Source of the DNA: an uncultured Eubacteriales bacterium
Lineage (GTDB): Bacteria; Bacillota_I; Bacilli_A; RF39; UBA660
DNA length: 36,190 bases
Assembly: GCA_900313815.1 (NCBI GenBank)
Contig: OMST01000030.1
Span: 1-36,190 of the forward strand
Direction of reading: 5' to 3'
A model generated the notes under the pieces. The model was not told the DNA's origin. It saw only the letters and a program-made list of their open reading frames with translations, and ran no database searches. How positions within the stretch are numbered: position 1 is the first letter of the stretch; each line of letters starts with the position of its first letter. Below are positions 5,685 to 17,755 of the stretch, piece after piece. Both the position numbers and the translations under genes were made by a program.

Positions 5685-6563
5685 TTATCTTAATAAATAT
5701 TCTCTTGAAAGTATTCTATCATCTGATGTATATTCTATTATATATTTATTATTTCTTTTAACTAATATTATCCCTATTGTTTTATCTTGATATATTCCTT
5801 TTATATTTTTATCTATATAGTTCATATATGTTTGTATTTGACCTATATGTTCTTTTCTTAACTCACTATGTTTTAATTCTACAACTACATAACAATTATA
5901 TTTTATATTAAACAATAATAAATCTATATAGTTATATGTATTCCCCATCTTTATTTTATATTCATTATCTATAAATGAATATCCTTCACCTAGTTCTTTC
6001 ATAAACTCACTTATATTTTCCACTATTAATTCTTGTAATACTTTCTCACTTATTATTTCTTTCTCTTTTGTCTCTATTATTATTGGCTCTTTTATACTCT
6101 CTTTTATTTCTATATTTTCATTATTTATAATCTTTTCTACTGCATCTTTACTTAATCTTTCATACTCTTTATTCTTAATCCTTTTCCTTAAATCCCTTAC
6201 GCTTAAATTATTTTGTTCACATACTTTTATATAGTATTGAATTTTAATAACATCTTCTAACGATAACAATTGCAAATAATGTGTCCATGTTAAATTGGCA
6301 ATCAGCGATTGCCCTTTTTGAAATATATAAAACTGTCTCATATATTTTAGACTTCTTTCACTATATCCTCTGCCGAGTTCATTAGTTAACTTTATTGAAT
6401 ATTTTTTTATTATTCCTTCTCCATAATGTTTACCTGCTTCACTTAATAGTTTTCCTACTTTATAATATGTTTCTAAATCACTTCTATTTTTACTGTAATC
6501 TTTTACTCTTTTTATTATTTCATTATTTATTAAATTCTCTTTTATCTCTTTATAATAATTCAT
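5685..6563 (-). CDS. YhcG-type PDDEXK nuclease domain protein (DUF1016)
   Basis: The N-terminal part (about 1-140) has the DUF1016 helical pattern: YYKVGKLLSEAGKHYGEGII, LGRGYSERSLKYMRQFY, LTWTHYLQLL. The C-terminal part is a PDDEXK fold with Asp214 (YIDLLLF) and the Glu229-Leu-Lys231 pair (VVVELKHSELRKEHIGQIQTYM). Family members are found near restriction or toxin loci, or alone, and are thought to act on DNA or RNA; the true substrate is unsettled. At 292 residues it is shorter than most (about 330-380). AGGAGGTACTA precedes the ATG. It stands alone between the rimP operon and a divergent polymerase, with no methylase or specificity subunit nearby. Confidence 0.88.
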   Translation of the reverse strand: MNYYKEIKENLINNEIIKRVKDYSKNRSDLETYYKVGKLLSEAGKHYGEGIIKKYSIKLTNELGRGYSERSLKYMRQFYIFQKGQSLIANLTWTHYLQLLSLEDVIKIQYYIKVCEQNNLSVRDLRKRIKNKEYERLSKDAVEKIINNENIEIKESIKEPIIIETKEKEIISEKVLQELIVENISEFMKELGEGYSFIDNEYKIKMGNTYNYIDLLLFNIKYNCYVVVELKHSELRKEHIGQIQTYMNYIDKNIKGIYQDKTIGIILVKRNNKYIIEYTSDDRILSREYLLR

Positions 6564-8983: not shown

Positions 8984-9013
8984 TTGACTTAACATTAAAT
9001 AATAATTTATAAT
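8984..9013 (+). promoter_or_regulatory. Promoter of the ClpX-like gene
   Basis: TTGACT (8984-8989), 18-base spacer, TATAAT (9008-9013), followed by a TTGAGGTGATG ribosome site and ATG at 9047. Confidence 0.8.
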
Positions 9014-9046
9014 ATTAACTTAATTAGATATATTTGAGGTGATGTT

Positions 9047-10618
9047 ATGGCAACTCTTAATAATGTTATTGCTATATTATATAGAAGAGAAGATGTTAAT
9101 GAAGAAGAATTCGATGAAGAAGATAGAAAGAAAATAGAAGAGCAAAATGAAAGTGGTGTTTCATTAAGACATTGTACCTTAACTCCTCTTGAAATATTAG
9201 ATGGTTATGAAACAGTTGTAAATGGGCATAGAGTATTTATTCCTAAAAATTCTAACAACTCTCAAATGAAAATGATAAATGATCCTGCTGGTCAAAATGA
9301 TGAATTCATATATGGATTCCCTATACCAGTAAATGAATACAATGATAGCGATAAAAGAGAAATAATCACTGTAATGAAAAATGAAAAACTATATAATTTA
9401 ATACTATTTCAAAACTTTGAAAAAGATAGAAAAGATGAATTAGTAACATTTACAAATGATTATATAAGACAAGGAAACATTACATTTATAGTTGATCCTA
9501 CTAACTATAATAGTACATTAACAATGTTACATGCTGATGTTGAAGTGCTTAAAAGAAACTATCCTAACGCTGAAATGATTACAGTTAAACCTGCTAGTAA
9601 TCCAGAACCACAAGAAGAAACAAAAAAAGTTGAAAAAGCCAAGCCAAAGATAGAAATATATAGTGATAAGATATTTGATGAAGTTAGCAAATATGTAGCA
9701 TGTCAAGATGAAGCCATTAAAATGATTTCATCAATATTCGCCAGAAACTATCTTGCAAAAAATCGCAATTTAAAAAGTAATTTTATTCTATGTGGTCCAA
9801 CGGGAGTTGGTAAAACAGAAATATTTAGACAACTTGCCAAGGCCATTTCATTACCAATTATACAAGAAGATTCATCTGAATTTACTGCAGAAGGTTATGT
9901 TGGTAGAAGTGTAACTTCAATATTAACTAAACTTCTTGTCGCAACAAATTGGGATTTTAAAGCAGCTGAACACGGAATAATATATATTGATGAAATAGAT
10001 AAAAAAGCAGGTGATGATTTAGGTGTTACTAGAGGTGCTGTCATTGATGCTTTCTTAAAAATGATGGAAGGACACGAATATGTTGTAGTGACTCCTGAGA
10101 AAAAAGAAGAAATAATTGATACATCTAGAATGACTTTTGTTTTTGGTGGTGCTTTTTCAGGTATAGAGAAATATGCAGATATAGATAATGGAAAAATTGG
10201 ATTCGGACGTGAAAGTAAAAACATTGATCCCAAGTTAATTTATAATCCACAAACTATTATGAATTTTGGATTAAAACCAGAATTTGTTGGTAGGTGTAAT
10301 GTTATTGCATTAAATTCCTTCCATGTACCAGAATTTATGGAATTAATGCACAAATCTGAACTATCATATCTAAAATTATATAGAGATTTTCTTATGTCAG
10401 CAAGAAATATAGAATTAGTATATGATGAAGATACAATAAGAGCCATTGCAGAAAAAGCAGACAAATTAAAAGAAGGTGCTAGAGGTATTAAAAATATAGT
10501 AGAACAAGCTTTATTATTATCTGAATTTTATACCTTATCATCCAATTATAGAAAATATAAACAATTAATTATTACTCCTGAAACTATAGAAGACAATAAA
10601 AAGTATATTTTAAAATAG
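9047..10618 (+). CDS. ClpX-like AAA+ ATPase with a non-standard N-terminal domain
   Basis: Residues about 205-520 are a ClpX/HslU-type AAA+ module: Walker A GPTGVGKT (250-257), pore-loop-1 GYVGRS (283-288), Walker B IIYIDEID (311-318), FGGAF, the arginine-finger region KPEFVGR and sensor-2 GARGIKN. An IGF tripeptide at 384-386 (KIGFGRES) sits where ClpX carries its ClpP-docking loop. The first 200 residues do not resemble the ClpX zinc-binding domain: there is no CxxC pair, and an alpha/beta region rich in acidic residues ends in a Pro/Glu/Lys linker (184-200). It could be an unfoldase feeding ClpP with its own substrate recognition domain. Whether it replaces or supplements housekeeping ClpX cannot be told here. 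Its 3' end overlaps the convergent gene by nine bases. Confidence 0.88.
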   Translation: MATLNNVIAILYRREDVNEEEFDEEDRKKIEEQNESGVSLRHCTLTPLEILDGYETVVNGHRVFIPKNSNNSQMKMINDPAGQNDEFIYGFPIPVNEYNDSDKREIITVMKNEKLYNLILFQNFEKDRKDELVTFTNDYIRQGNITFIVDPTNYNSTLTMLHADVEVLKRNYPNAEMITVKPASNPEPQEETKKVEKAKPKIEIYSDKIFDEVSKYVACQDEAIKMISSIFARNYLAKNRNLKSNFILCGPTGVGKTEIFRQLAKAISLPIIQEDSSEFTAEGYVGRSVTSILTKLLVATNWDFKAAEHGIIYIDEIDKKAGDDLGVTRGAVIDAFLKMMEGHEYVVVTPEKKEEIIDTSRMTFVFGGAFSGIEKYADIDNGKIGFGRESKNIDPKLIYNPQTIMNFGLKPEFVGRCNVIALNSFHVPEFMELMHKSELSYLKLYRDFLMSARNIELVYDEDTIRAIAEKADKLKEGARGIKNIVEQALLLSEFYTLSSNYRKYKQLIITPETIEDNKKYILK

Positions 10619-11407
10619 TAATTCATTTATATTAACTATTTTATATCCTTTACTTTGAATATAATTTATAGTGGCTGATAATTCGTTTAAATTATTATTA
10701 GATTCTTTGATAAAGATAATTACACCTTTATCAAGAATCTTTTTTGTTGTAGTAAGTAAATCTTTATCAATATAATTAATTATTTTAATAGTATTTATTT
10801 TCTTCTTTATACAATCATTTATTATTTCATAATCATTTGTTTTAACACAAAATATTTCATCATGCAATATATTTATAAAGTTATTTAATTCTTTTAAACT
10901 ATTACCTTTAAATAATATGTTACTATGATTTTCTATATTATCTAAGTTTTCACTTAAAGAGTTATAGTTCATTAATATATTTAATTCTATGTTTTTTTGG
11001 CCTGCTATTTTTAACATTTTATTATAATATTTACCACTATTAACATCTATTACTATAGAAATGTTATTATTATATTCATTACCTCTTATGATATACTTAT
11101 TTAAATTATTCTTTTTACTTAATATGCATTCATTTTCTTTATATTCAATTAACTCTTCTTTAAAACCTATTCCTTTCATATTAGAATAACTTTTATCTTT
11201 ATCAACTCTTAATCCTGATAATCCTAAAATAATACCATCTTCTGTGATACTACCTTCTCTACATTTATAATCAAAAGAATCAGCATATTTATTTATAGAA
11301 GCTAAAATAACATTATTTTTTTCAGATAATTCTATAACTTTATTAGTCCAATAAAAACTAAATATTGCAATTAAAAAGATTGTAAAGTATTTAAAATAAT
11401 TATTCAT
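10610..11407 (-). CDS. Membrane-anchored polysaccharide-deacetylase-like protein, probably inactive
   Basis: An N-terminal signal anchor (FKYFTIFLIAIFSFYW) is followed by a 90-residue region (ITEDGIILGLSGLRVDKDKS) and then a NodB-like half-barrel. The closing segment LSATINYIQSKGYKIVNINELL is typical of polysaccharide deacetylases. The metal-binding motifs are eroded: the usual TFDDGP strand reads VIDVNSG and the HxxxH motif is reduced to NHSN. It may therefore be a structural or binding protein at the cell surface. A -10-like TATAAT lies only five bases before the ATG, and no Shine-Dalgarno is visible. Read-through from the upstream peptidase is possible. The last nine bases overlap the ClpX-like gene tail-to-tail. 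Confidence 0.65.
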   Translation of the reverse strand: MNNYFKYFTIFLIAIFSFYWTNKVIELSEKNNVILASINKYADSFDYKCREGSITEDGIILGLSGLRVDKDKSYSNMKGIGFKEELIEYKENECILSKKNNLNKYIIRGNEYNNNISIVIDVNSGKYYNKMLKIAGQKNIELNILMNYNSLSENLDNIENHSNILFKGNSLKELNNFINILHDEIFCVKTNDYEIINDCIKKKINTIKIINYIDKDLLTTTKKILDKGVIIFIKESNNNLNELSATINYIQSKGYKIVNINELLF

Positions 11408-11422: not shown

Positions 11423-11460
11423 AAAAGATATAAGTTTTATACTAAATACTTATATCTTTT
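11423..11460 (-). terminator. Terminator embedded in the 3' end of the M3 peptidase gene
   Basis: AAAAGATATAAGT/ACTTATATCTTTT, 13 pairs, followed by oligo-T on the minus strand. The 5' arm encodes the last residues of the peptidase (KRYKY) and the stop codon lies in the loop. Confidence 0.85.
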
Positions 11461-12579
11461 AATTAATTCATTACTTTTTTCTTCATAATATGGTTTTATT
11501 AGTTCGCATGATAAGAACTCATCATAATTTATTCCTAAAGTTTCTACATTTTGTTTTAATGTTTGTTCTTGTTTTAAGCCAAGGAAATCACTAAATTTTT
11601 TATTAAACTCTTTTGGATTATCTTTATGTATCATTAATGCATTAGCTGCCATCATAGTACCTATAAAATAATATAAATCATTTCTTAAATTGCTTCCTTT
11701 TAATCCTGTGCCATTATCAAAAACAACTATTCCATCGGTATTAACTAAAAAGTCAGATGGTGATGTTAACATTTTATGATATTTTAAGAATTGTCGTGGT
11801 ATTGCAGATAATTTAGCTAATATTATATTATTGGCTAAATCTGTTTCTATTCTATTTTGTACTAAATAGTCTGCAAAAGAAATTTCAAAGAAACATGATG
11901 GTACTTCACACATAGGATCAGCAGCAGTATATTTCTTACTTTGAGATAACATAGTATGTTGCAAGTCTACTGCATGACCAAGTTCATGAACAAGTAATAC
12001 TATGTTTTCTAAAATCATTGAATCTATATATGTTAAAATATATGTTTTTCCTATTACAGCAGAACCAGCCGTAAATGCATCATGATCATGATCATCATCT
12101 GTTTTTTGAACAGCACCTACTAATAATCTTTTATTTTCTATTAAATCTTTAACTGCTTTTAAAGTATTATCTCCATATTGAGCAAAAAATGGATATATAA
12201 GATCTTTAAATTCTTTTTCAGAATACTTTTTAACTTTATTATAAAAATTACCATACTCAACAAATAAGCAATCAAATATATTTGGATTAATAGCATCATT
12301 AATATTAGTTGATAATTGAAATAAATCATCACAATTACTATTTACAAAGTTTAAAAGTATATCTAACTGTTTCATATTATAATTATGCATGCATTTGTAC
12401 ATATGCTTTTTATTACTGTATAATTCTTCTTCAATATTAATGCCAAATCTATCTCTAGTCATAAGTGCTAAAGATAAATAATCAGATAATTCATCTATTG
12501 TACTAGCTTTTTCATGTTTTAAAAGATATAGTTTTAATTTATATAAATCTTTTAGAAAAGATATATAATCAAATTCCAT
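11437..12579 (-). CDS. Short M3-family zinc peptidase (oligoendopeptidase-like)
   Basis: The zinc-binding motif is VHELGHAVDLQH (HExxH with the M3-type Gly). The third ligand is the Glu in the downstream helix EVPSCFFEISFADYL, spaced as in M3 enzymes. These thermolysin-like enzymes cut short peptides in the cytosol; there is no signal peptide. At 380 residues it is far shorter than PepF (about 600) and starts with what looks like the helical mid-domain, so it is a compact variant rather than a broken copy. It lies 20 bases after serS with a GGGGG ribosome site, so they share a transcript. A dedicated terminator follows. Confidence 0.82.
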   Translation of the reverse strand: MEFDYISFLKDLYKLKLYLLKHEKASTIDELSDYLSLALMTRDRFGINIEEELYSNKKHMYKCMHNYNMKQLDILLNFVNSNCDDLFQLSTNINDAINPNIFDCLFVEYGNFYNKVKKYSEKEFKDLIYPFFAQYGDNTLKAVKDLIENKRLLVGAVQKTDDDHDHDAFTAGSAVIGKTYILTYIDSMILENIVLLVHELGHAVDLQHTMLSQSKKYTAADPMCEVPSCFFEISFADYLVQNRIETDLANNIILAKLSAIPRQFLKYHKMLTSPSDFLVNTDGIVVFDNGTGLKGSNLRNDLYYFIGTMMAANALMIHKDNPKEFNKKFSDFLGLKQEQTLKQNVETLGINYDEFLSCELIKPYYEEKSNELIKRYKYLV

Positions 12580-16545: not shown

Positions 16546-16566
16546 AGTAGTTAATAATTAACTACT
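16546..16566 (-). terminator. Terminator overlapping the stop of the CofE-like gene
   Basis: AGTAGTTAA/TTAACTACT with a three-base loop, followed by TTTT on the minus strand. The TAG stop of the gene (16562-16564) is part of the 5' arm. Confidence 0.8.
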
Positions 16567-17755
16567 CATTGCTGTAATTTGTAAAATATCTTTGAATAAG
16601 TATTACAGGAGTTCCTTTATCTCCACTACCACTAGTTAAATCACAAAGACTTCCTATTAAATCTGTATAACGTCTTGGTGTAGTACCTTGAGTAGCCATA
16701 GTTCCTTTTAATTCTTTATCCTTAGATTTAATTTCTTCTATCATAGCTTGTTTTAATTCATCACCATGTAGATCTTTAAATTTATTTTCACTAAAATATT
16801 TAAGTTTTATTTCATTTGGACTACCTTCTAATCCTTTAGTATAAGCGGGACTTACTACTGGATCAGCTAATTCCCAAATTTTTCCGACTGGATCTTTAAA
16901 AGCTCCATCTCCATAAACCATTACTTCAATAGTCTTACCAGTTTTTTTCTTTAATAATTCTTGAATTTTATTTACTAATACATCACCAGTTCTAGGGAAT
17001 AATTTAACTTTTTCTTCTGTAGAACGATTACTTCCTAAAAGTCCATAAGGTGAGTATCCACTACCATCAACACTTTCATTTAATATATCACTCATTAATA
17101 GTACATGAGCATTTTCATCTTTTTTAAGTATTCTTTCTTTAGTATCAAATCTTGTATGAATATCACATACAATTACATCCTTAGTATAATTTAGAATGTC
17201 TTCTGGATTATTTGAAAATACCATCTCAAATTCAGCACCTTCTTTTAATACTAAATCTCTATATACTTCATACATATTTACTCCAGTAAACATATGTTTA
17301 AAGTGAATAAATTTCTCTTTATAATCTTCTTCAGTTATTAAATCACTTGATGGGTTTATTCCGTATTTAACTAAGTCTTCTTTATATAAAATATCATTAC
17401 CAACTTCATCAGATGGATAACTAGATAATAATGTTATCTTCTTAGTAGATCTAGCAAATGCAGATAATAAAACTGCAAATCTATTTCTACTTAATATTGG
17501 AAATACTAATCCAATATGATCTGAATTATTAAATTTAGTTTTAATATCTTTAGCAATTTGATCAAGTGTTGCAAAGTTACCTTCACTAATACCAACAACT
17601 GCTTCAGTTATTGCAACTATATCTCTATCTTCAAATTCAAAATTTTCTGATTTGCTAGCATTTAATAAGGAATCAACAACTATATTTGCTAAATCGTCTC
17701 CCTCTTTAATAATTGGGGTTCTAATACCTCTTACTATTGTACCTACATTTCTCAT
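16562..17755 (-). CDS. CofE-family (F420-0 gamma-glutamyl ligase-like) protein
   Basis: The protein opens with the family layout: an N-terminal RGIRTPIIKEGDDLANIVVDSL strand-turn, then DRDIVAITEAVVGISEGN and, further on, MVYGDGAFKDPVGKIWELAD and the C-terminal GTTPRRYTDLIGSLCDL. CofE adds glutamate to cofactor F420, but Firmicutes lacking F420 carry this longer 390-400 residue branch, whose substrate is unknown. No F420 gene is present here, so a different acceptor is likely. The gene is single, with an extended -10 (TGC-TATACT, 17783-17778) and its own terminator. AGGAGAGTG precedes the ATG. The family call is good; the activity is open. Confidence 0.82.
   Translation of the reverse strand: MRNVGTIVRGIRTPIIKEGDDLANIVVDSLLNASKSENFEFEDRDIVAITEAVVGISEGNFATLDQIAKDIKTKFNNSDHIGLVFPILSRNRFAVLLSAFARSTKKITLLSSYPSDEVGNDILYKEDLVKYGINPSSDLITEEDYKEKFIHFKHMFTGVNMYEVYRDLVLKEGAEFEMVFSNNPEDILNYTKDVIVCDIHTRFDTKERILKKDENAHVLLMSDILNESVDGSGYSPYGLLGSNRSTEEKVKLFPRTGDVLVNKIQELLKKKTGKTIEVMVYGDGAFKDPVGKIWELADPVVSPAYTKGLEGSPNEIKLKYFSENKFKDLHGDELKQAMIEEIKSKDKELKGTMATQGTTPRRYTDLIGSLCDLTSGSGDKGTPVILIQRYFTNYSNE

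Follow-up and report, generated by a model that had tools for sequence, protein, structure and literature searches.

ClpX is usually viewed as half of a protease. There are also ClpX unfoldases that act without degradation, namely mitochondrial ClpX and yeast Mcx1, and Mcx1 lost its IGF motif together with ClpP. Mitochondrial ClpX, for example, activates ALAS through partial unfolding without degradation (PMC7077987). In E. coli ClpX, the substitutions I268L, F270L and V274A lead to severe ClpP-binding defects, and the RKH loop is unique to ClpX-family enzymes (PMC7112951). Related proteins include HslU, which belongs to the same clade and is likewise an AAA+ ring unfoldase, the ClpX-like proteins of phages and the zinc-domain-less ClpX-like proteins of uncultured Clostridia. 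The ClpX-like AAA+ protein analysed here probably resembles mitochondrial ClpX in working without a protease; unlike Mcx1, it keeps the GF of the IGF motif.

The window (the whole stretch of 36,190 nucleotides that was analysed) encodes this protein of 523 aa in an intact open reading frame with an ATG start (9047..10618, forward strand, as for all features of this gene given below). A ribosome-binding-site-like GAGGTGA lies just 5' of the frame (9036..9042), and further upstream a promoter-like TTGACT-18-TATAAT (8984..9013) scores 11/12 in a consensus scan, a match rather than functional proof. The full ClpX-type AAA+ core recognised by the initial annotation is borne out by the NCBIfam ClpX models, which cover residues 192-519, and by a Pfam AAA_2 match across residues 243-419. 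The core occupies residues ~206-523, most of them with pLDDT above 90 in an AlphaFold2 model built from an alignment of 30 sequences. Within it are found a Walker A motif GPTGVGKT (aa 250-257; 9794..9817; G250, G253, G255 and K256 invariant), a pore-1 loop GYVGRS (aa 283-288; 9893..9910; the stretch GYVGRSV begins at 283), a Walker B motif IIYIDE (aa 311-316; 9977..9994; D315 and E316 invariant), an arginine-finger motif GR (aa 415-416; 10289..10294) and a sensor-2 motif GAR (aa 477-479; 10475..10483), the last two placed by alignment. All of these are shared with canonical ClpX, as is the IGF motif, and they are kept in relatives with only 23-55% identity; the protein is likely to work as a motor in the ClpX manner. 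The altered pore charge noted in the initial annotation is real in this protein, but is variable across the family, where GYVGRS, GYKGKD, GYVGKS and GFVGQS all occur.

Despite this core, the protein is not to be filed as ClpX, because it falls below the curated cut-offs, lacks the zinc domain and the RKH loop, and stands outside the ClpX clade. Its scores of 195.6 bits (NF003745) and 176.5 bits (TIGR00382) are about half the respective cut-offs of 359 and 370.75 bits, whereas four canonical ClpX controls of the same class reach 488-664 bits. A Cys4 zinc finger is present in the canonical ClpX that other families of the class carry; here the only cysteines are at 43, 219, 249 and 417, so there is no such finger, and as just one of them falls within the first 200 residues, the earlier reading of an N-terminal region without zinc-finger cysteines holds. 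In addition to what that annotation had seen, the segment of the canonical GGRKHP loop (aa 345-358; 10079..10120) has no RKH in this protein or its relatives when aligned with ten canonical ClpX sequences of the class, in all of which the loop is present as RKH or RKN. The gene tree gathers canonical ClpX in a supported clade (99/90) that excludes the ClpX-like protein, and the branching order among the ClpX-like groups is unsettled.

The match to HslU reaches 89 bits where 362 are needed, and HslV (PF00227) is absent from all 18 genomes of the genus, the own genome included, which led to its rejection as a partner. Phage ClpX-like proteins (Prevotella Lak, Pseudomonas and others) are 32-35% identical in the core over residues ~174-520, and the N-terminal domain is unmatched in them; a viral origin was rejected, as the phages match the core only and no relative was found in IMG/VR with this query. 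The Clostridia proteins share the ClpX-type core and an IGF-like motif but differ in having short N-termini, a GYYGADV-type pore loop and a separate clade, and perhaps represent a parallel case. Ten of their loci with a GY[YWK]G[AG]DV loop were recorded (L122, L125, L128, L131, L133, L135, L141, L142, L145 and L151).

Where canonical ClpX carries its zinc domain, this protein has about 200 new residues. Residues 1-170 (9047..9556) form a mixed alpha/beta domain with pLDDT of about 90 for most positions, followed by a linker (aa 173-198; 9563..9640) that is probably disordered (pLDDT below 50). Relatives share the domain, with the same start and a G53 that hardly varies, although identity beyond the closest of them is only 11-25%. 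The proposal that it is new has withstood profile searches: nothing matched among PDB sequences, and none of 24 N-terminal domains exceeded a Pfam cut-off, the scattered weak matches occurring in one member each. All of these were taken as chance, Longin_2 for the domain of the window (E 0.09) among them. Hypervariability of the domain, suggested by 77% identity against 99% for the core between G002 and G017, was rejected at the window's locus, where it is explained by a recombined low-divergence tract that runs from serS into the core. At the paralogue locus of the same two genomes (L107/L109), the N-terminal part diverges beyond background. In both ClpX-like genes of this pair (L060/L061 and L107/L109) the low-divergence tract ends near the junction of N-terminal domain and core.

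Of 243 genomes surveyed in the bacterial family, 90 have a relative (E up to 1e-20), so the protein is no chance occurrence. The host group consists of small-genome bacteria, and some relatives come from gut sources such as goat omasum. The window also encodes an F420-0:gamma-glutamyl ligase family protein (16562-17755, reverse strand), here in a small-genome gut bacterium. The canonical ClpX zinc domain (PF06689) exceeded its cut-off in none of the 243 genomes and canonical ClpX is present in other families of the class, so canonical ClpX appears to have been lost or replaced family-wide. Some genomes hold two or three ClpX-like copies, a few in tandem; a second paralogue group, which has an N-terminal region distinct to it and a [VI]GF motif, was seen in G017, G012, G002 and G006 (L107-L110). 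Separately, AAA proteins of 600-680 aa whose N-terminal halves have no known identity lie beside dinB in congeners (L064:11247-13277, L062:5651-7477, L100:9505-11367) and represent another variable ATPase of the same locus.

Within the genus the locus is the same in all ten congeners that bear the gene. On one side is an ATP-grasp sugar-transfer-type protein (PF14397; 7913..8926, reverse strand); on the other, likewise on the reverse strand in the window, are a 265-aa protein (10610..11407), whose 3' end overlaps the ClpX-like frame by 9 bp, and a 380-aa protein with a HELGH motif (11437-12579), two genes from the ClpX-like gene; serS comes next, and nusA-infB is nearby. Exceptions are the missing 265-aa gene in G005 and G007, an extra ORF in G015 and a contig that starts inside the gene in G017. 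The gene is missing from G009 and from G014, and in the latter the ATP-grasp and 265-aa flanks lie 3 bp apart. The ClpX-like gene tree matches the species tree, which was built on one gene (IF-2), and a vertical history with losses therefore follows for the genus. Relatives beyond the genus have different neighbours, aspS and hisS among them. The 380-aa protein is itself 32% identical to its counterpart in G012, compared with 92% for the adjoining SerRS.

The initial annotation proposed a ClpP-partner unfoldase, a claim that the genome itself speaks against. So far as its 67.5%-complete assembly allows (G000; 1.03 Mb, 75 contigs), it has neither an HMM match to ClpP (PF00574) nor a canonical ClpX zinc domain; a lack of clpP is the outcome by which the initial annotation said its claim would be refuted. 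In seven ClpP-bearing congeners clpP adjoins whiA, and in six a uridine-kinase-like gene lies on its other side; in G003 that gene sits on another contig, and in G012 it is followed by gapA. In the own genome whiA and the kinase-like gene are assembled 98 bp apart (L182:9123-11809; contig C69), and tblastn finds no clpP there. The same interval has lost clpP in G002, G005, G006, G009 and G017 (L183-L187), with another ORF of ~235 aa in its place in G005 and G006. Counted by eye on the IF-2 tree, there have been about four separate losses in the genus, and the ClpX-like gene persists in every genome with an emptied clpP site except G009. Formally, clpP could still lie elsewhere in this species' genome, because the assembly is only 67.5% complete.

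Nor does the distribution of the ClpX-like protein follow that of ClpP. In the genus, three genomes (G001, G004 and G012) have both, eight have only the ClpX-like protein, six only ClpP and one neither, a negative association (p 0.05, kinship ignored). Across the family, ClpP is found in 207 of 243 genomes, among them 74 of the 90 with a ClpX-like protein, and there is no association (p 0.46, kinship ignored). What tracks ClpP instead is a protein with Clp_N (PF02861), about 435-459 aa long, found in 9/9 ClpP-bearing and 0/9 ClpP-less genus members (Fisher p 4e-5, kinship ignored). Each of the seven that were read (L194:2078-3385, L195:1973-3301, L196:1864-3171, L197:1607-2932, L198:1677-3014, L199:1842-3221 and L200:1781-3115) has an N domain and one AAA module of the ClpA/ClpC first-module type. 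Clp_N and AAA were both found in the two that were scanned, one of which can be aligned with ClpA over that protein's first ATPase module. An [IL]GF tail stands in the last few residues of five of the seven; a sixth has FGF there and the seventh a less clear IGY. From its sequence, this protein looks like a minimal ClpP partner. A Clp protein of ~700 aa was rejected for that role, since the examples that were read, from four congeners, are ClpB-like and lack an [IVLM]GF docking loop.

Selection on the ClpX-like gene continues where clpP is gone. For G002 and G017, both without clpP, dN/dS is 0.19 over the whole gene and 0.17 over its N-terminal part; their core gives little signal because it carries a recently recombined tract that the two share. 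For the clpP-less pair G005 and G006 the value is 0.48, near saturation. Values below 1 in such pairs speak for a ClpP-independent function. The core evolves much faster than canonical ClpX: G000 and G012 share 56% identity in it and 95% in IF-2, and for G005 and G006 the figures are 62% and 96%, whereas IF-2 and ClpX keep a roughly equal pace in canonical pairs (92/92, 81/80, 75/62 and 67/63% identity). G002 and G017 are an exception (99/99), because of the recombined tract. Fast evolution and loss of the gene in several congeners could also be expected of a decaying ClpX remnant without function, an explanation that the open frame and intact ATPase motifs of the relatives examined, together with the purifying selection, render most improbable.

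The IGF motif on which the initial annotation relied is indeed present (aa 384-386; 10196..10204), in a loop that is probably flexible (residues 382-388, pLDDT below 50). Among relatives G385 is kept in 42/43 and F386 in 39/43, and both are invariant in the ten genus members aligned, with or without ClpP. This near-invariance of GF, the presence of ClpP in most genomes with a ClpX-like protein and the three congeners with both would suit a true ClpP partner whose clpP is missing through incomplete assembly or was lost too recently for the loop to decay. That explanation is unlikely, considering that the clpP site is assembled and empty here and has been vacated in five congeners, that association with ClpP is absent or negative, and that the Clp_N protein follows ClpP perfectly instead. 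Furthermore, [ILVM]GF is kept in 10/11 clpP-lacking and 27/32 clpP-bearing genomes; since GF is retained irrespective of ClpP, the motif is no report of a ClpP partnership in this group. Relatives often have L or M at the first position of the motif, and here a Ser stands at the V274 place (read by eye), the positions at which I268L and V274A are defective in E. coli (PMC7112951). The invariance of G385-F386 with or without ClpP is a hint that something still binds at this loop, and the persistence of GF may reflect slow decay, a structural need invisible in the model or another partner.

Conservation of GF in a flexible loop after the loss of clpP could point to a new unfoldase-peptidase pair, in which the loop binds a peptidase or partner other than ClpP, for instance the nearby HExxH (M3-like) protein. 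This 380-aa neighbour has its HELGH motif, a congener homologue weakly matches Peptidase_M3 below the cut-off, and the gene is conserved near the ClpX-like gene in the genus. Yet it stays in G014 and G009, both without the ClpX-like gene, and the neighbours outside the genus differ. M3 enzymes are not known to cooperate with AAA+ rings, and such a pair is considered unlikely. A role in phage defence or another conflict would explain the patchy presence (90/243) and the fast divergence of the core, and the paralogues and tandem copies could be read likewise. A YhcG/DUF1016-type PDDEXK nuclease (PADLOC PDC-S02, a candidate defence system) is encoded in the window at 5685-6563 on the reverse strand and was not seen there in the congeners examined. 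The fixed locus and vertical inheritance within the genus argue against such a role, as do the housekeeping neighbours elsewhere, PADLOC matches that are weak and lie mainly over the ATPase, and the empty IMG/VR search, and it is regarded as unlikely.

The protein is thus most probably a ClpX-derived, ring-forming AAA+ unfoldase or remodeller that is ClpP-independent here and has an N-terminal domain for client recognition; as clpP has been lost from its site in this genome, the motor most likely works alone. Clients would be recognised by the surface of the alpha/beta domain, flexibly linked to the motor, in place of the zinc domain and RKH loop. ATP hydrolysis would then drive the Tyr-Val pore loops to pull on clients, which would be activated, disassembled or unfolded rather than fed to a protease. 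Ring formation and client handling are general features of the family, from which we infer a hexamer, unfolding activity and the recognition role of the domain. The distinct substrate set proposed in the initial annotation is plausible.

More speculatively, canonical ClpX may have been replaced family-wide by ClpX-derived ATPases that left ClpP, re-used the docking loop for a different partner and choose clients by the N-terminal domain. This broader scenario is considered unlikely. The pairing of ClpP with the Clp_N single-AAA protein offers a candidate minimal Clp protease. As for the IGF loop, its presence is no reliable sign here that ClpP is the partner. A ClpX relative that has outlasted deleted ClpP several times in one genus provides a natural experiment on the ClpP-independent work of ClpX.
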